DNA of 39,129 nucleotides, taken from a virus. The stretch spans positions 1 through 39,129 of IMG/VR virus record IMGVR_UViG_3300025098_000117. One strand, written 5' to 3'. The notes under the pieces were generated by a model. It was given only the letters and a program-made list of their open reading frames with translations. It made no database searches and was not told the origin of the DNA. Shown piece after piece: positions 27,513 through 37,671 of this stretch (positions within the stretch are counted from its first letter, which is position 1; each line of letters begins with the position of its first letter). The position numbers were made by a program, and so were the translations under genes.

Positions 27513-29717
27513 ATGGCACAATTTAAAAACACAACAATTGATTCAACCGGAAGATTAACTCTGCCTAGTGGAACAACAGCTCAACGACCAAGTATACCAA
27601 CACAAGGTATGATGCGATATAATACAACGATAAGTGAAGTAGAATACTATGACGGTGGCGCCTGGCGCGAAGTTTCTAGTACTGGTGCAGAAGCCACCGG
27701 CGGCCTTGTTGTTGATTCTAATATCGGCGGAATTTCTTATAGATCTCATATCTTTAGAACAAACGAATTTGCTTATGTGTCAAGAAGCGATGCTACAGTG
27801 TTAGGTGGTACTCGATCTGGTGGCGCAACTGTGCAAGGTGAAGTTGACAGTTTAACAGGATGTTCTCCGCTGTTGACATTTGAACAAGCACTTGAATTTG
27901 TTCACAGTATTGGATGTAGATTACCTACTATAGATGAACTAATAAACGAGGGACCTGCTGTTGGTACAGGTTGTGGATACGATAACGAACTAATTTGGAC
28001 AGCTGATAAAGCTAATCCCGAAGCTACACAACATTATGTAATGTATGGCCGCGTAGAAACAAACGGCACTGCAACAACTGCTAGAGACAACAAATCAACT
28101 GCCCGTGTTAGATATGTAGCTGACGTAAACACCAACAGAACAGACCCTATCACGTTAAACGATCCAATTATTCAAGGATTCCTCGAAGAATATTATTCCG
28201 GTGATATAGACTTAGGAACTAAATCATTTACATTAAATGTAACTAAAGGCGGAGAAGTTGATTATCTCATAGTAGGCGGAGGCGGCGGCGGCGGCGGAAT
28301 TATTGCTGGCGGTGGCGGCGGAGGCGGATTTCTAACAGGAAGCATAGCTGTAACTCCGCAAGCATATACTATTACAGTAGGTGAAGGAGGACTAGGTGGA
28401 TTTGGTTGGAATAGCAACGGCCAAGGCGGATTACCAGGTGCAGACTCTTCAGCATTTGGATTCACCGCTATTGGCGGTGGTGGTGGCGGTTACCACGGAG
28501 GAGGCGGCTCAAATAGCAGCTGGGTTAACGGCGGCTCAGGAGGCGGCCAAGGAAGAAATCCTTCACCAGGTAGCAACATTGTCGGCCAAGGTTTCCCAGG
28601 CGGAACAGGATCCGGAGACTCCGGCGGTGGTGGTGGTGGCGCAGGAGGACCTGGACAAGATTCAGCAGACACATTCGGTGGCAACGGTGGCCCAGGATTA
28701 CTATCAAATCTATCTGGAGTAAACACATTTTATGCTGGAGGCGGCGGTGACGGAAAACGCTCTAATATTACAAGTGCTGGCATTGGTGGCATTGGTGGCG
28801 GCGGCAGCGGAACAAATTACACATTTAGAGCAGAAAACGCAGCCCCTCATACCGGTGGCGGTGGTGGTGGTGCTGGTTATAATGGCTCAAATAGTACTAG
28901 AATGGGCGGCACTGGCGGCTCAGGTATTGTAATAGTTCGATATCGTAAAAATAAAGAAACTACATCGGCACCAACAATAATTGTAAACAGTTCTGCACCA
29001 GGAATTAAAGCGTTTACAGCACAAAATCCTGCACCTAGTGCAGCGTACATCACGCAGCTAGGATTACCTAATGGATGGTACTGGGTTAACTTAACCGGAC
29101 CACAATTAGTCTATGTAAACACACAATATAAAGGTGGCGGCTGGTATCTAGTTATACAAAATAATCGAGACAACGGTAATGGTATAGGGGCTTTGAGTTA
29201 TTATGATGCTACGGGTCAAAAATTAATGGTAGCTGGCTCTCCTGGCAATGCAGCAGGCGACGATCTAGGAGAAATTAATGTTTGGGCAGGAATGGAACTT
29301 TGGAATGCTATGACAAACGGTGCAGGCGGACAAGTTGCCCAAGTAGTTGGTAATATCCCAATAGATCTAGACTCGCCTGCTTATGGAAAAAGAGCAACTT
29401 GGAGTTATACTGGATTTGATCCTGATTACTCATTCCAAGGATCGACTCTAATACAAGCAAACGGCGGCGCTCCTGGAATGCAAAGCTATCACAGCCAAGG
29501 CACCCGGGCCTTAACTACTTTTGATAGAGATCAAGATGATAACGGCGGAAATTGTGCTACTTATTACGGAAATAATCCTTTTTGGTACGGAAGTTGCTGG
29601 AGCGGTAATGCTTGGGGCGGCGGCAACAGCGGCGGATATGCAAATGCTTACTTTTGGGAAGGCAGTGGCGGCGATAATTGGAATTATGGTGCTACATATG
29701 TAAGGGCAAGTTTTTAA
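27513..29717 (+). CDS. Glycine-rich adhesin with fibrinogen-like C-terminal domain (734 aa)
   Basis: The start abuts the previous stop. The cap (LPSGTTAQRPSIPTQGMMRY) is shared with its neighbours. Residues about 90-215 form an insert absent from the other two adhesins: LTFEQALEFVHSIGCRLPTI, ELIWTADKA and ARVRYVADV, reminiscent of DUF1566 / C-type-lectin-like folds. The glycine-rich stalk runs to GGSGIVIVRY (about 480). Residues about 519-734 match a fibrinogen-related domain: GWYWVNL, GGGWYLVIQNNRDNG, TTFDRDQDDNGGNCA (Asp671-Cys681), FWYGSCW (Cys695) and GATYVRASF. The 215-residue length, the acidic calcium-type loop and the closely spaced cysteine pair all fit. Such domains act as lectins in animals. 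Likely a receptor-binding protein. Confidence 0.85.
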   Translation: MAQFKNTTIDSTGRLTLPSGTTAQRPSIPTQGMMRYNTTISEVEYYDGGAWREVSSTGAEATGGLVVDSNIGGISYRSHIFRTNEFAYVSRSDATVLGGTRSGGATVQGEVDSLTGCSPLLTFEQALEFVHSIGCRLPTIDELINEGPAVGTGCGYDNELIWTADKANPEATQHYVMYGRVETNGTATTARDNKSTARVRYVADVNTNRTDPITLNDPIIQGFLEEYYSGDIDLGTKSFTLNVTKGGEVDYLIVGGGGGGGGIIAGGGGGGGFLTGSIAVTPQAYTITVGEGGLGGFGWNSNGQGGLPGADSSAFGFTAIGGGGGGYHGGGGSNSSWVNGGSGGGQGRNPSPGSNIVGQGFPGGTGSGDSGGGGGGAGGPGQDSADTFGGNGGPGLLSNLSGVNTFYAGGGGDGKRSNITSAGIGGIGGGGSGTNYTFRAENAAPHTGGGGGGAGYNGSNSTRMGGTGGSGIVIVRYRKNKETTSAPTIIVNSSAPGIKAFTAQNPAPSAAYITQLGLPNGWYWVNLTGPQLVYVNTQYKGGGWYLVIQNNRDNGNGIGALSYYDATGQKLMVAGSPGNAAGDDLGEINVWAGMELWNAMTNGAGGQVAQVVGNIPIDLDSPAYGKRATWSYTGFDPDYSFQGSTLIQANGGAPGMQSYHSQGTRALTTFDRDQDDNGGNCATYYGNNPFWYGSCWSGNAWGGGNSGGYANAYFWEGSGGDNWNYGATYVRASF
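28923..28944 (+). repeat. Stalk-tip junction repeat, second copy
   Basis: Twenty-two bases identical to 26763-26784, at the end of the stalk and before the fibrinogen-like tip of the second adhesin. Confidence 0.85.
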
Positions 29718-31813: not shown

Positions 31814-33745
31814 GTGGCATCATCACCAATTGTAGATAGAATCAGAATAATACCAAGACCCAACGATTTTTTAGATCGTAACGTAGGTTCTAGCGGTGAA
31901 GTATTCTTTAACAAAGTAACTAATAGTTTAAGAGTATACAGCGGCAAAGATATTGCAGGATTTGAAATTGCTAGAGCTGATTTGAACAATGTTACTGGTG
32001 AAAATTTACTTTCTAAATTAACAATTACAAATGACGATATAAGCTGGATAGCATATGCTGACCTTGAGAGTTTACCTAGTGCTACAGACAATCACGGAAT
32101 GTTTGCACACGTACACGGTACAGGTAAAGCATACTATGCACACGCAGGAAATTGGGTACAACTTGCTGATCAATCTGATATTAATACTACAGCAGACATA
32201 TCGGAGTTAACAGATACAACAAATTTAATACCTGCAGACTTATCTAATTTAACAGATACAACAAATTTAATACCTGCTACGCTAACTGACCTAGGAATTA
32301 CCGATGGTGATTCGACACAAATTTTAACTACAGACGGTGCTGGAAACTTTACATTTGAAGATGCGCCTGAAACAGGTTCGACACAGAACTTATTTGCTAC
32401 AATTACAAGTGATGACGGATCAACAACAGCTGATGCTGTAACAGATACATTAAGTATATTAGGCGGTACAAACATAGCAACTGCTATTGCTACAGACTCA
32501 GACGATGTAACAATTAATATGAGTACATTTAGTATTGACTTTTTAAGCGATGTTGACACTACAACAAGTGCGCCAACTTCTGGACAAGTATTAAAGTGGG
32601 ACGGTGCTAAATGGGCACCAGGTTCTGATGCTACGACTGGAGGCGGTGGAACAGATGCTGATACACTTGACGGATTCGACGGAACATATTATTTAGACTG
32701 GGGCAACGTTACTAACAAACCTAGTATACTTACACTGGCAAGTTTAAGTGTTGGTAACGAACTTACAGCCTCGGGCGATGGCGCTATATCATACGATGAT
32801 ACTACAGGAGTGTTCCGTTATACTCCACCTGACTTGAGTTCATATCTAACTAGTATAACATTTGATGATTTAACAACTACTCCGACCACGTTAGCAGGTT
32901 ACGGAATCAATGATGCATTACCGTCTAGCACTTCTATACCAACAGTGTTAACTGATCTAAGTATTAGTGACGGAACAAACGGACAAGTTTTAACAACAGA
33001 CGGTAGTGGCGGATTCACATTCACAACAATAAGTGGCGGAAGCGGTGGTGACTATAGTGACTCAGATGTTAATGCACATCTTAATACAACTAGTGCAGCA
33101 TCAAGTGAAGTATTAAGCTGGACAGGAAGTGATTTTGACTGGGTAGCACAATCAGGCGAAACAAATCAAAACGCATTTAGTAATGTTTCAGTTAGTGGAC
33201 AAACTAATGTTACTGCTGATAATTCTACTGATACGTTAACTTTTGCAGCCAGCACAGGAATTAGTTTATCTACTTCTGGAAATACTGTAACTATTGCAAG
33301 TACAGTTAGTGCAGGTGCTAGTAATTTTGACGACCTAGGAGATGTTACAACAGCCGGTTTAAGAATAGATCAAATTTACGAACCTGCCATAGCAATGCTT
33401 AGAGTAGATAATGTTGGAACAGGGTCTTACACATTTCCTAGTCATTATACAGGAAATAATCCTACTATCTACGCTATAAGCGGAACTACTATAGCATTTG
33501 ATTTAGATAATATTTCAGGACATCCATTTGAAATACAAGATAATACTCTTACAGCATTAACTAGTAATTTGGTACACGTTACATCAACTGGAACTGTAAG
33601 TACAAATAGCGCAGCGCAAGGAAAGTCTAGTGGAACATTATATTGGAGAATACCAGAAGGCTCACCTGGTACATACGTATATCAATGTACTAGTCACGCA
33701 AGTATGTTTGGATCTATTACAGTTAAAGATCTTTCGAATATTTAA
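31814..33745 (+). CDS. Tail-fibre protein with cupredoxin-like C-terminal domain (643 aa)
   Basis: GTG start with AAGGAGA. The N-terminus (SPIVDRIRIIPRPNDFLDRN, then GEVFFNKVTNSLRVYSG) is a fibre-type cap. The middle has tail-fibre motifs such as GQVLKWDGAKW, DTLDGFDGTYYLDWGNVTNK and two GQVLTTDG-type turns. The last 100 or so residues resemble plastocyanin: IAFDLDNISGHPFEI with His570, then PGTYVYQCTSHASMFGSITV with Cys625, His628 and Met631. The H...C-x2-H-x2-M order is that of type-1 copper proteins; plastocyanin itself has C-x2-H-x4-M. Whether copper is bound is unknown. A 29-base direct repeat at 32207 encodes a doubled LTDTTNLIPA segment. The 3' end overlaps a convergent gene by 23 bases. 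Confidence 0.8.
   Translation: MASSPIVDRIRIIPRPNDFLDRNVGSSGEVFFNKVTNSLRVYSGKDIAGFEIARADLNNVTGENLLSKLTITNDDISWIAYADLESLPSATDNHGMFAHVHGTGKAYYAHAGNWVQLADQSDINTTADISELTDTTNLIPADLSNLTDTTNLIPATLTDLGITDGDSTQILTTDGAGNFTFEDAPETGSTQNLFATITSDDGSTTADAVTDTLSILGGTNIATAIATDSDDVTINMSTFSIDFLSDVDTTTSAPTSGQVLKWDGAKWAPGSDATTGGGGTDADTLDGFDGTYYLDWGNVTNKPSILTLASLSVGNELTASGDGAISYDDTTGVFRYTPPDLSSYLTSITFDDLTTTPTTLAGYGINDALPSSTSIPTVLTDLSISDGTNGQVLTTDGSGGFTFTTISGGSGGDYSDSDVNAHLNTTSAASSEVLSWTGSDFDWVAQSGETNQNAFSNVSVSGQTNVTADNSTDTLTFAASTGISLSTSGNTVTIASTVSAGASNFDDLGDVTTAGLRIDQIYEPAIAMLRVDNVGTGSYTFPSHYTGNNPTIYAISGTTIAFDLDNISGHPFEIQDNTLTALTSNLVHVTSTGTVSTNSAAQGKSSGTLYWRIPEGSPGTYVYQCTSHASMFGSITVKDLSNI
32207..32277 (+). repeat. 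29-base direct repeat with 42-base period
   Basis: Positions 32207-32235 and 32249-32277 are identical. They encode a doubled 14-residue unit, LTDTTNLIPA plus a variable linker, in the cupredoxin-tipped fibre protein. Confidence 0.9.
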
Positions 33746-33986
33746 TTATTTTATCTAGCTGTTGTCTTAGCACAATACTACGTTCTACATTTTCTCTAAC
33801 TTTAGTCGGATCAATTGATTTATTAATTGCATCGTGTGTAGCATCAATATAACTATATTCGTTAGATAGTTTATTTAAAATATCTTTGCATTTTTCTTTA
33901 GCACGTTCATTAGTAATTTGATCAATGTCTCTTTTATATTTCTTAAGGTCTTTTTTAAATTCTTTAGATTGGCTTATTTTTAACAT
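33723..33986 (-). CDS. Small charged helical protein (87 aa)
   Basis: Last gene of the minus-strand operon; the ATG overlaps the cupin stop (TAATG). The sequence is very rich in Lys, Asp and Glu, with predicted helices throughout (FKKDLKKYKRDIDQI, then RAKEKCKDILNKL and RSIVLRQQLDKII). It has no signal peptide or membrane segment. The family is not recognised. The base composition matches the surrounding phage genes. Its 3' end overlaps the fibre gene transcribed towards it, leaving no room for a separate terminator. Confidence 0.6.
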   Translation of the reverse strand: MLKISQSKEFKKDLKKYKRDIDQITNERAKEKCKDILNKLSNEYSYIDATHDAINKSIDPTKVRENVERSIVLRQQLDKIIKYSKDL

Positions 33987-34327
33987 TAATTTAACCTATA
34001 ATAATCGTCTGGATCATTGCTATTACTAGTTTCTGCCATAGCACTGTTATCAGCTAAACTTTTTAGTGTAACAGGCAATAGTGCAGGCACTTCAAAAATA
34101 CTACCTTCTGGAAGTTCTTTAGAATATGCTTTACCGTCTTTAGAATCAACCCATTGTACTTCAAACTTCCCAGCATTTACAAACCAACTTTTGTGTCGAC
34201 TTTTGTGGAAATGTAATCGAGTTTGTTTGCCTTCTTCTTCAAAAACTAATATTTTACTACAATAATGTTCGTTGTCAGTCCAAACAACTTCGTAACCGTA
34301 GTCTGTTTGTTTTATATTATCTGTCAT
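33986..34327 (-). CDS. Cupin-fold protein, phosphomannose-isomerase-like (113 aa)
   Basis: One cupin barrel is visible. Motif 1 is TRLHFHKSRHKSWFVNAG, with His39, His41 and possibly His45 as metal ligands. The second motif is present only loosely (ELPEGSIFEVPALLPVTL). The lead-in YGYEVVWTDNEHYCSKILVF resembles the start of the type II mannose-6-phosphate isomerase cupin domain, but the length covers only one barrel. It starts immediately after the Nudix stop (TAGATG), so the two are translated together. Its position after a Nudix gene suggests sugar-nucleotide metabolism or capsule/LPS modification; the substrate is unknown. Confidence 0.7.
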   Translation of the reverse strand: MTDNIKQTDYGYEVVWTDNEHYCSKILVFEEEGKQTRLHFHKSRHKSWFVNAGKFEVQWVDSKDGKAYSKELPEGSIFEVPALLPVTLKSLADNSAMAETSNSNDPDDYYRLN

Positions 34328-34765
34328 CTATTCCTCTAATAAATCTATTACTTGAAACACAGTTTCTAATTTAGCAAGATTAGTTTTATTTTGTAGTGTA
34401 TTACGTAGTCCTTGATGCAACGTCTTTGGCCATTTACCAAAACTAGTCCAAGCATATCCATCGTGTTCGTTATTTAGATTAGGCAAAAATTCTTTTTTTA
34501 TAACAACAAGATATGTATGAAAATTAAATTTTTCATCATTAGATACAAATGTTTCTAAAGGTATAGTTTTTACAAACTTAGGTAAGTCGCCAACTTCTTC
34601 TTGTATCTCACGGGTTAATCCTTCAAATGGCGATTCACCTAATTCGGTACCGCCACCTACAAGTCCCCAAGTACCAGAAGTTTTACCATTAGCACGGTGT
34701 AAAAACAAAAATCTTTTTGTGTCTAGTGCATAGAAAAGCGCACCACTACAAACTATCTTACTCAT
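34328..34765 (-). CDS. Nudix hydrolase (145 aa)
   Basis: A clear Nudix box occupies residues 38-59: G38-x5-E44-x7-R52-E53-x2-E56-E57-x-G59, within GGTELGESPFEGLTREIQEE. The length is that of a single-domain enzyme. Nudix proteins hydrolyse nucleoside diphosphates linked to another moiety using a divalent metal. The N-terminal FLFLHRANGKTSGTWGLVGG resembles housecleaning and GDP-mannose-type members, but the substrate cannot be fixed. It starts eight bases after the gp15-like stop and abuts the cupin gene, so it would be made late with neck proteins. Other T4-like phages encode Nudix enzymes (for example T4 NudE), usually outside this cluster. Confidence 0.88.
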   Translation of the reverse strand: MSKIVCSGALFYALDTKRFLFLHRANGKTSGTWGLVGGGTELGESPFEGLTREIQEEVGDLPKFVKTIPLETFVSNDEKFNFHTYLVVIKKEFLPNLNNEHDGYAWTSFGKWPKTLHQGLRNTLQNKTNLAKLETVFQVIDLLEE

Positions 34766-34773
34766 ACTAGTAA

Positions 34774-36282
34774 TTAGCCAGATAAGTTAATTGACCAGTC
34801 ACCTTTGGCATACTCTCCATCAACACTTAGTAACCACTGATCACCGTCCCAGTAATATTGTACGCCTGTGTTAAGATTTGTAGTATATAGTTTTGTAATA
34901 GTTGTGTCATTATAGGGCAAATAGTCTTTACTTGCATCAAATATAATATTCCATTTAGATCCGTCATATTCAATTATATCATTTGCGCCTGCAACAAAGT
35001 CTGTGTTATCAGCATTCTTCCAAGCATCAGCTCCGTCGGTATTTGTAGTACTACCAATAGCACCGAGTAATAATAAACGCACACCTGCTTTTGAAGTATC
35101 TGATTGAGGATCATAACGTAACGGATCAATTATATAATCAATGCTAGAATATTGATTTGTGTCTCTAGCAGGACCTTGTATAGTATTATTGCTAGGTAAT
35201 GTATCTCTATCAAAATCAATAACTAGTTGTGTTTCGTCCAATGGATTAAGAGTAATTCTTCCGGCAATTAATCCATTTACATCTGGTTTTCTTAAATAGA
35301 TAATACTTAAACCAGGTTGATATTTTCCTGGAAGTGCATCAATATAAGTTGACCATTTTGCATCACCTGGTAATCCATTTGTAAGTATCGAAGCATTACC
35401 GTTCATTAGTAGTATACGTTCTTGCAACGGATTATCAACTATAGCTTTTGAATGACGTGTAACTTGACTAGATATTTCAAGTTCACCGTTGCCGTCATTT
35501 GGAAATACTCCGGAATCTACTACATTATCATTACCTTCTACTCTAGACGAAGTGTGTCCTCCGATACTGAATAGATTAGTACCTTCTAACATTGATTCAA
35601 AGTCAACGTATCCGTCGCCGTCAAATATGCTAGTAACAATATCAGTAATAACGCCAAGACGTTTTATTTTAGCTGGTGCGCTAATATATATAGGAGTTGA
35701 AAATGTTAAACTAGCAACATCAATTTCGCTTTCGGTTCCTATAGGAATAGATCTACTACTAAAATTAATACTGTCTAACATTACAGTTGTTAAGCTAGTC
35801 CAATCAAGATAGTTATCTGTAGTTTGTATTTCTAAACTAGGATTAAACAGCATTAATATTTGCTCCATAATCTGTAGTTTCATTGTTGTGTTAGTAGTCC
35901 ATATGTCAACATTAACTGTTAGTTTATAAGGACTTGGCATTAAACGTTCGACTGTATAATTACGTCCTTGAAAATCTTCGTATTCTTTTCCTGCTTCGTC
36001 GTAAGCACGTTCTCTAACGTGTCTTTTACCTACAAAACTAGAATCACTAGTTCGGTCACGATCTATTTCTAGTGCAGTAATATATACTGCCATACGCGGC
36101 GCACTTGGTATTTTGTTTTCAGAATTGTCTCTTAATATCGATCCTACTTGTCTAGTAATATCGCCGTACATAACCGGAACTTTAACCTCAGTACCGTCAC
36201 CTGTTTTATACCCAAAATTACTCATTAAGCGCATAATTTGCACAAGGTATTTTCTTATTTGTCCGTCATAAAAATGTTGCAT
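34774..36282 (-). CDS. 15: Tail-completion / sheath-stabilising protein, T4 gp15-like (502 aa)
   Basis: The N-terminal 210 residues follow the T4 gp15 pattern. They open MQHFYDGQIRKYLVQIMRLM, against FYNSSFRRYATLMGDLF in T4, then VKVPVMYGD, then PSPYKLTVNVDIWTTNTTMK and QIMEQILMLFNPSL, against the QIVEQILPYFQPHF stretch in T4. The region after DVASLTFSTPIYISAPAKIK is an extension; T4 gp15 is about 272 residues. The extension contains modules such as EYDGSKWNI and YYWDGDQWLLSVDGEYAKGD, similar to the C-terminus of the preceding gene. The start overlaps the gp14-like stop (TAATG). In T4, gp15 caps the tail sheath and joins the head-neck complex. Assignment is by remembered similarity. Confidence 0.75.
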   Translation of the reverse strand: MQHFYDGQIRKYLVQIMRLMSNFGYKTGDGTEVKVPVMYGDITRQVGSILRDNSENKIPSAPRMAVYITALEIDRDRTSDSSFVGKRHVRERAYDEAGKEYEDFQGRNYTVERLMPSPYKLTVNVDIWTTNTTMKLQIMEQILMLFNPSLEIQTTDNYLDWTSLTTVMLDSINFSSRSIPIGTESEIDVASLTFSTPIYISAPAKIKRLGVITDIVTSIFDGDGYVDFESMLEGTNLFSIGGHTSSRVEGNDNVVDSGVFPNDGNGELEISSQVTRHSKAIVDNPLQERILLMNGNASILTNGLPGDAKWSTYIDALPGKYQPGLSIIYLRKPDVNGLIAGRITLNPLDETQLVIDFDRDTLPSNNTIQGPARDTNQYSSIDYIIDPLRYDPQSDTSKAGVRLLLLGAIGSTTNTDGADAWKNADNTDFVAGANDIIEYDGSKWNIIFDASKDYLPYNDTTITKLYTTNLNTGVQYYWDGDQWLLSVDGEYAKGDWSINLSG

Positions 36283-37658
36283 TAATTATCCGCCTGTGGT
36301 CGTAGCGCCTGTGATATCGATTGTCGCTGCTGTGTTCGTGTATTATGTAAGGTTAATGTATATAGTCCTTCGTATTTAACAGCATTTGCAGGCAACGTAA
36401 TTTTTACAAATTGCGTACTGCCGTCTGATCCTGTATACGATGATAGCATATTAGTATTTGATGCAGTGTCATAGTTTAATACAAACCTTCCATCCTGTGC
36501 AAGGCTATCAGTAAATTCTAATTGAATATATTTTGCAGTCATATATGCAATTTCGGTTTCAAGTTCTGTTGCACCAACATTTAATCTTATAAAGTCAGTT
36601 GCTATTGGAGTATTATACAAGTAGGTGTTTACGTCATTAACGAATGATCCACGTAATGTATTTGGAGTGTCATTATTCAATGGAGCTCTCTTAACATCGT
36701 GTACCTTAAGCCAACGCTTACCGTCCCATCGAAACATACGCTGCGGTAAAAAGTCTGTACGTAAAAAGTAATCACCTTCTGTACTACCTAATGGAAAACT
36801 AATACCACTTGAAAAATTACTACCATTAGGGGCAAATTCGTCACCAATTAATAAACCATTATAACCGTGCGATGTAGGAGTTGCTTTATCAGTAATAGTA
36901 CTACCGTCGGCATCAACTTGCTGTAATTTTGCTCTACCTGTAGTTTCGTCTGCGGCTAATGTATAAAAATTACTATCGACATCATACCCACTTTTAGGAG
37001 TATTTGCTTCTGCTTCGGACACTACTGCATTATTAACTTGCATCTCTGCTTCAAAAGTACTTAATATATCACGTAATGTTCCATCTTCAGGATAGTCTTC
37101 ACTTGCTGGTAAGTCGAGTATATCTTTGTATTCTTGACTATCTACTATTTGTTTTAATTTAAGTCTATATAAGTGTGGATACCAAGTTGGTGAAAAGCCT
37201 TCAGCGGCTCTATTAATATCTTCAATAACATAAAAACGTTTTAGTGCTACACTAAAATCATTCATTGCATATTCATCTTTTAAATGAGGAAGTTCTATAA
37301 CATCACCAGGCATAAGTTTACGCCCAATTGATTCTACACTGCTTTGAATATGCACAGTCATAAACAAAGTATCATTGCTTAAGAACAAACCAAATTGGCT
37401 TAGGTCAAAATCAATGTCTTGTACATTGTATATTCCGCGAATAGTGTAAATGTCTTTATCGTATTTTCGATCTCGATTTTCCATAAAGACCATATCCTGT
37501 ATTTGCGTATGATCTTTTTCTGTTGTCCCATCATTTGTTCCAGTATATTTGTGGACAAACAGGTCTGTTCCACCTATAGTGAACATTTCATTAATTTGGC
37601 GGTCTAAGAATTCAAAGTCTTTTCCGCGTTCTGGTTTATATAAACTTAATCTTGGCAT
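36282..37658 (-). CDS. 14: Neck protein, T4 gp14-like (458 aa)
   Basis: The start is placed at the second ATG (37658), giving MPRLSLYKPERGKDF. The ATG at 37664 lies inside the late promoter and, by T4 spacing, upstream of the start of transcription. Gp14-like features are the N-terminal DRQINEMFTIGGTDLFVHKY, then MTVHIQSSVESIGRKLMPGD, IELPHLKDEYAMNDF and KRFYVIEDINRAAEGFSPTW. T4 gp14 is 256 residues; the extra 200 contain DYFLRTDFLPQRMFRWDGKR and a C-terminal beta region. Gp14 and gp13 together close the packaged head in T4. No Shine-Dalgarno is visible upstream. It heads the minus-strand operon, divergent from the gp13-like gene. Confidence 0.7.
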   Translation of the reverse strand: MPRLSLYKPERGKDFEFLDRQINEMFTIGGTDLFVHKYTGTNDGTTEKDHTQIQDMVFMENRDRKYDKDIYTIRGIYNVQDIDFDLSQFGLFLSNDTLFMTVHIQSSVESIGRKLMPGDVIELPHLKDEYAMNDFSVALKRFYVIEDINRAAEGFSPTWYPHLYRLKLKQIVDSQEYKDILDLPASEDYPEDGTLRDILSTFEAEMQVNNAVVSEAEANTPKSGYDVDSNFYTLAADETTGRAKLQQVDADGSTITDKATPTSHGYNGLLIGDEFAPNGSNFSSGISFPLGSTEGDYFLRTDFLPQRMFRWDGKRWLKVHDVKRAPLNNDTPNTLRGSFVNDVNTYLYNTPIATDFIRLNVGATELETEIAYMTAKYIQLEFTDSLAQDGRFVLNYDTASNTNMLSSYTGSDGSTQFVKITLPANAVKYEGLYTLTLHNTRTQQRQSISQALRPQADN

Positions 37659-37663
37659 ATACA

Positions 37664-37671
37664 TATTTATC
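37664..37671 (-). promoter_or_regulatory. Late promoter for the gp14-gp15 operon, GATAAATA on minus strand
   Basis: Read on the minus strand the octamer is GATAAATA in the context TTACGATAAATATGTATATG. T4 spacing predicts transcription from 37658, which is the A of the proposed gp14 start codon. Confidence 0.6.

Follow-up and report, generated by a model that had tools for sequence, protein, structure and literature searches.

The blue-copper cupredoxins (plastocyanin, amicyanin and rusticyanin; PF00127) are small periplasmic or lumenal electron carriers, electron transfer being the customary role of type-1 copper sites. One example of a cupredoxin encoded by phages is petE of cyanophages, a host-derived metabolic protein (PMC5083919; PMC2984593) that occurs as a stand-alone plastocyanin auxiliary gene and not as a domain of a virion fibre. 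Metal-binding domains have also been proposed on the fibre of a marine phage, where possible iron-binding tail-fibre domains were reported in connection with the Ferrojan horse idea (PMC11705849); these concern iron, as opposed to the folded domain of predicted type-1 copper character described below. No account of a cupredoxin, plastocyanin-like or blue-copper phage fibre was found in the open-licence PMC papers searched, and the same literature offers no description of virus attachment proteins with copper sites, while phage petE and proposed iron-binding fibres are already known. Also close to the fibre studied here is the cyanophage protein gp9 (PHROG 677), whose C-terminal domain and ligand set, found in many cultured Synechococcus and Prochlorococcus myoviruses, are the same as those of the fibre studied here, and in the annotations examined of gp9 relatives the copper domain is not mentioned.

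The stretch of viral DNA analysed here, referred to as the window, is 39,129 nucleotides long (IMG/VR record IMGVR_UViG_3300025098_000117). An initial annotation made from its letters alone had described a 643-aa fibre protein bearing His570, Cys625, His628 and Met631 near its C-terminus, and the open reading frame and residue counts agree with this in full (Table 1). The protein matches PHROG 677, 'baseplate wedge tail fiber protein connector', over residues 313-639 (E 1.7e-57, profile positions 79-410 of 412), a match that meets membership and takes in the C-terminal domain, and it also matches the tail fiber family PHROG 9729 (8.9e-21). The gene is part of a tail-fibre/baseplate cluster, and no partner gene or redox context was noticed around it. 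The backbone of the phage is of another kind, with two neck/tail proteins closest to those of PA5oct, Phosso and Atu_ph07-type jumbo phages, and the neck protein is present in 13 of 14 contigs with window-like fibres. Judged by these backbone similarities, the window phage is not a cyanophage, and its fibre differs from gp9 in the N-terminal part. The pairing of a jumbo-like backbone with a fibre common to cyanophages indicates that fibre and backbone have had different histories.

Table 1. Positions of the fibre gene, its copper-protein-like domain and neighbouring features in the window
Feature	Position	Strand	Remarks
Tail-fibre/baseplate fibre protein with copper-protein-like domain	31814-33745	+	ORF, GTG start, 643 aa
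C-terminal cupredoxin domain (predicted)	33377..33742	+	About residues 522-643; AF2, Foldseek, family profile vs PDB
His570, putative first ligand, in GHPFEI	33521-33523	+	Aligned to first His ligand of plastocyanin 1b3i; conserved
Cys625	33686-33688	+	Ligand loop
His628	33695-33697	+	Ligand loop
Met631	33704-33706	+	Ligand loop, axial
Ligand loop C625-x2-H628-x2-M631	33686..33706	+	Amicyanin-length
Fibre-gene cluster members			Two baseplate-wedge-like proteins; gp15-like sheath stabiliser; head-tail adaptor
Fibre-gene cluster members			Several fibres with glycine-rich, LamG-like, fibrinogen-like parts
734-aa protein	27513-29717	+	Glycine-rich domain; weak fibrinogen C-terminal match, 20.8 bits (cut-off 22)
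ORF overlapping 3' end of fibre gene	33723-33986	-	
Cysteine-dioxygenase-like (PHROG 7851) and Nudix hydrolase genes	33986-34327 and 34328-34765	-	Adjoin the fibre gene
Neck and sheath-stabiliser proteins	34774-37664	-	Nearest PA5oct/Rak2-like jumbo phages

The fibre C-terminus contains both SGHPFEI and PGTYVYQCTSHASMFGSITV, and it shares with the blue-copper cupredoxins the order and identity of the four ligands, including the C-x2-H-x2-M loop that is common to amicyanin and the phage domain. It differs from them in being fused to a fibre, in having HPF at the first ligand and in falling under the Pfam and NCBIfam cut-offs, and there are no copper-binding data for it. Taken alone, the window domain scores 13.5-16.2 bits against PF00127 (Copper-bind), so that membership at the curated cut-off of 21.2 is not met, and 14.6 bits against the amicyanin model TIGR02657, far from the equivalog cut-off of 110.2, with only the loop length agreeing; its matches to single models (PF00127, halocyanin, plastocyanin, rusticyanin and amicyanin) are all weak. 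A bacterial relative (L254) does exceed the PF00127 cut-off, at 22.0 bits. Because the single sequence stays under the Pfam cut-off, the case for a cupredoxin rests on the family and on the fold.

At the family level, a profile built from 26 diverse relatives matched cupredoxin domains of Cu nitrite reductases in the PDB (3e-6, with 6hbe giving the best E, 3e-6), plastocyanin 1b3i (2.6e-5), rusticyanin (8.9e-5) and amicyanin (about 1e-3). In the alignment with plastocyanin 1b3i, the His, Cys, His and Met of the family are superposed on the type-1 ligands, and the Cu nitrite reductase domains can likewise be aligned with the family ligands. At the level of structure, an AlphaFold2 model of the window domain, made with 79 relatives, has a mean pLDDT of 92, with core blocks at 95-98. 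Among the best 50 PDB matches in Foldseek, all are copper proteins of cupredoxin fold (best E 2.7e-5), including rusticyanin, AcoP, amicyanin, plastocyanin, laccases, nitrite reductases and purple cupredoxin; the TM-scores by query are moderate (0.31-0.52), which fits a divergent family member. The VIA structure comparison gave Z up to 11.9 to Cu nitrite reductase (rmsd 3.5, 120 aligned), and the matches in its list are taken as evidence of fold only, with no enzyme function (nitrite reductase, laccase) claimed from them. Among viral structure models, the named entries that match best are cyanophage gp9 and fibre proteins; a model of full-length gp9 was of low confidence (pLDDT 59), being poor outside the C-terminal domain, and was left out of the fold search.

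The resemblance of the family to cupredoxins is therefore clear and is not due to chance. On the predicted fold and the homology, the C-terminal end of the fibre protein is best read as a genuine cupredoxin domain holding a full type-1 ligand set with the short loop known from amicyanin. Structure prediction and fold search, which the initial annotation had named as checks, agree with the plastocyanin-like frame that it described. That the four ligands cluster in the fold is inferred from the plastocyanin alignment, as ligand distances were not measured. Five of the 26 family members also match the At5g54830-like family PF25489 (best 3.6e-4), which may be a real distant relation, while Pfam Bys1 was put down to chance along with the other low and scattered matches. 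In BFVD the model also matched a Fadolivirus 'blue type 1 copper protein' and proteins predicted for giant viruses of pithovirus- and marseillevirus-like type ('beta-sandwich protein').

The starting loci were gathered through peptide patterns, and because ligands figure in some of these the sample is biased to that extent; of the six patterns in the first scan, four held no ligand, and a scan with the fibre N-terminus was independent of the ligands. Since a motif-based choice of phage copies favours intact ligands, retention was scored with a profile masked at the four ligand columns and run over all collected loci. By this measure, 205 of the 221 unique full-length domains have an intact H-C-H-M, including copies whose identity to the window domain is down at 18-36%. 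Five further domains were parsed as E/F/Y-CHM, which appear to be alignment shifts, with His-Pro-Leu lying slightly later in four of them. In three domains Gln stands in place of the axial Met; Gln is the axial ligand of stellacyanin-type proteins and a known functional alternative to Met. All four ligands are absent from five domains (L212, L095, L232, L238 and L083), and partial losses are confined to one domain each: both His in L057, the Cys and second His in L076, and the first His in the bacterial L260.

When 52 representatives below 60% identity are considered, at least 43 have all four ligands by a strict parser and four have none. Independent loss predicts that a mean of 0.2 of the 52 would have one or no ligand, with a maximum of 3 in 20,000 permutations, although these permutations do not account for the tree (kinship). 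As far as sequence comparison goes, in most homologues the four ligands are retained together or lost together, which is the co-variation that the initial annotation had proposed to look for. The ligand columns fall within the domain's top ten for conservation, and the ligand His and Cys codons vary synonymously among relatives. The loop Cx2Hx2[MQ] occurs in all 214 unique domains that could be parsed, with no other C-to-H spacing among them; the distance from the first His to the Cys varies from 43 to 80, as opposed to the invariant length of the ligand loop.

Hundreds of marine phages, some cultured and others not, carry the module. A tblastn search with the domain gave matches in 290 phage records (E <= 0.01), almost all of them from Synechococcus and Prochlorococcus phages (a weak match in Burkholderia phage BcepNY3 was dropped, having no motif). 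The domain forms the C-terminus of gp9 in S-SSM5, syn9, S-RIM8, P-RSM4 and other cultured cyanomyoviruses, and it is also part of a P-SSM2 protein that has collagen-like repeats, is encoded at two sites in P-HM1, and occurs in S-BM3 and S-RIM32. It is carried by a fibre of pelagiphage HTVC028P, lies near the N-terminus of a protein of podovirus P-GSP1, and is found inside giant fibres, with one 147-kb contig holding four copies, one of them in a 5058-aa frame; all 26 diverse copies match PHROG 677. In the scan with the fibre N-terminus, nearly all complete, strongly matching fibres terminate in the domain, the exceptions being L284 and L289, which have other ends, and L285, where the domain is internal, and these exceptions indicate that the fibre end is exchangeable. 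The comparison of sequences thus presents the cupredoxin domain as a mobile module reused in many marine phage tail proteins. The placement at a fibre tip that had been suggested for it holds for the window protein and does not extend to others, in which the domain sits inside the protein or close to its N-terminus.

Copper binding on virus attachment machinery is likely, given ligands that are intact and kept as a set, with no copper shown to be bound; for the type-1 site of the fibre domain itself it can be called probable, again by inference and with no metal observed. The explanation favoured here over electron transfer, and given about an even chance of being right, is that of a copper-stabilised attachment or fibre-capping domain, copper binding being inferred. 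Because the cytoplasm offers little free copper, the metal would probably be acquired outside the cell, after lysis. It may then link the loop of the first ligand with the ligand loop at the C-terminus, and this link, if it forms, could rigidify a domain at the fibre end that serves for attachment, either to the host surface or to an adjoining part of the fibre, both of which steps are less certain. Electron transfer would not be necessary for such a copper-stiffened end. Support comes from the fold, the homology with superposed ligands, the set-wise retention, the replacement of Met by Gln, the fixed loop, the synonymous codons and the modular placement, while a structural or adhesive role as such has only weak evidence, drawn from the fibre location and the exchange of fibre C-termini.

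Present evidence separates only one of the alternatives from the rest, namely that no metal is bound. An arrangement with a limited chance of being correct is that the copper site of gp9-like proteins stabilises the joint between baseplate and fibre and not a free tip, as PHROG 677 and GenBank name many relatives 'baseplate wedge tail fiber connector'; this label, however, is annotation only, the domain is also found in giant fibres and podovirus fibres, and the gp9 model gives little help outside the C-terminal domain. It is quite improbable that the site exchanges electrons with partners on the host surface, or that its redox state alters shape or affinity and so gates attachment. The ligand set is complete, with an axial Met or Gln, and sites of this type ordinarily serve electron transfer, yet a nearby partner was not noticed and the domain is borne by phages of very different backbones and hosts. 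Distinctly doubtful, too, is the broader claim that marine phages as a group bear functional, copper-loaded type-1 fibre sites whose metal or redox state controls attachment, making adsorption in the ocean copper-dependent.

That the cupredoxin frame is merely a rigid, metal-free adhesion or assembly domain, with ligands that are relics or otherwise used, is very improbable. The few copies that persist after ligand loss (L057, L212, L095 and L232/L238) speak for it; against it stand the retention of all four ligands down to the lowest identities, losses that are mostly of the whole set, and ligand codons that change synonymously. A beta-sandwich lectin with a relic ligand set, which had also been raised at the outset, is unlikely given this retention and the Met-to-Gln swaps. 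The metal-free alternative is disfavoured but still possible, given that L057 persists with neither His. In that close relative (L057:5007-5369; 62% identity) a window-like domain with SLPF and CQLYPAM keeps the Cys, the Met and the rest of the domain, which suggests that the domain can serve without the normal site, and its loss of both His, together with the partial losses in L260 and L076, implies that the metal is not essential in every copy. The least credible alternative, that a metal-uptake receptor of the host recognises the loaded tip or is supplied with metal by it, would draw on the possible iron-binding fibre domains of a marine phage (PMC11705849) and on the several domain copies per phage contig, but it is a mere analogy without a known receptor, and the internal placement in some fibres is ill-suited to a bait that works only at a tip.

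Should the copper-stabilised domain prove real, it could reveal that metals act in phage infection in a way not seen before, accessible in existing isolates, and the copper site would give a function to the widely annotated, unexplained C-terminus of cyanophage gp9.

Relatives of the domain were also found at eleven bacterial loci, mostly of Bacteroidetes; these (L254-L264) include Marivirga, Flavobacteriaceae, Lysobacterales and others, with CHRD, DUF7282 or collagen repeats present in some of the proteins. There is also a second cupredoxin-like domain, divergent in sequence (HPLNF ... YYWCxxHxxMGN) and not found in the window, at L067:1069-1473, L027:1766-2170, L023:1105-1503 and others; it mostly belongs to a different frame, which lies about 3.5 kb upstream of the fibre. 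At L074:3351-3719, L072:213-587 and L157:4079-4453, this second domain has Gln for the axial Met.
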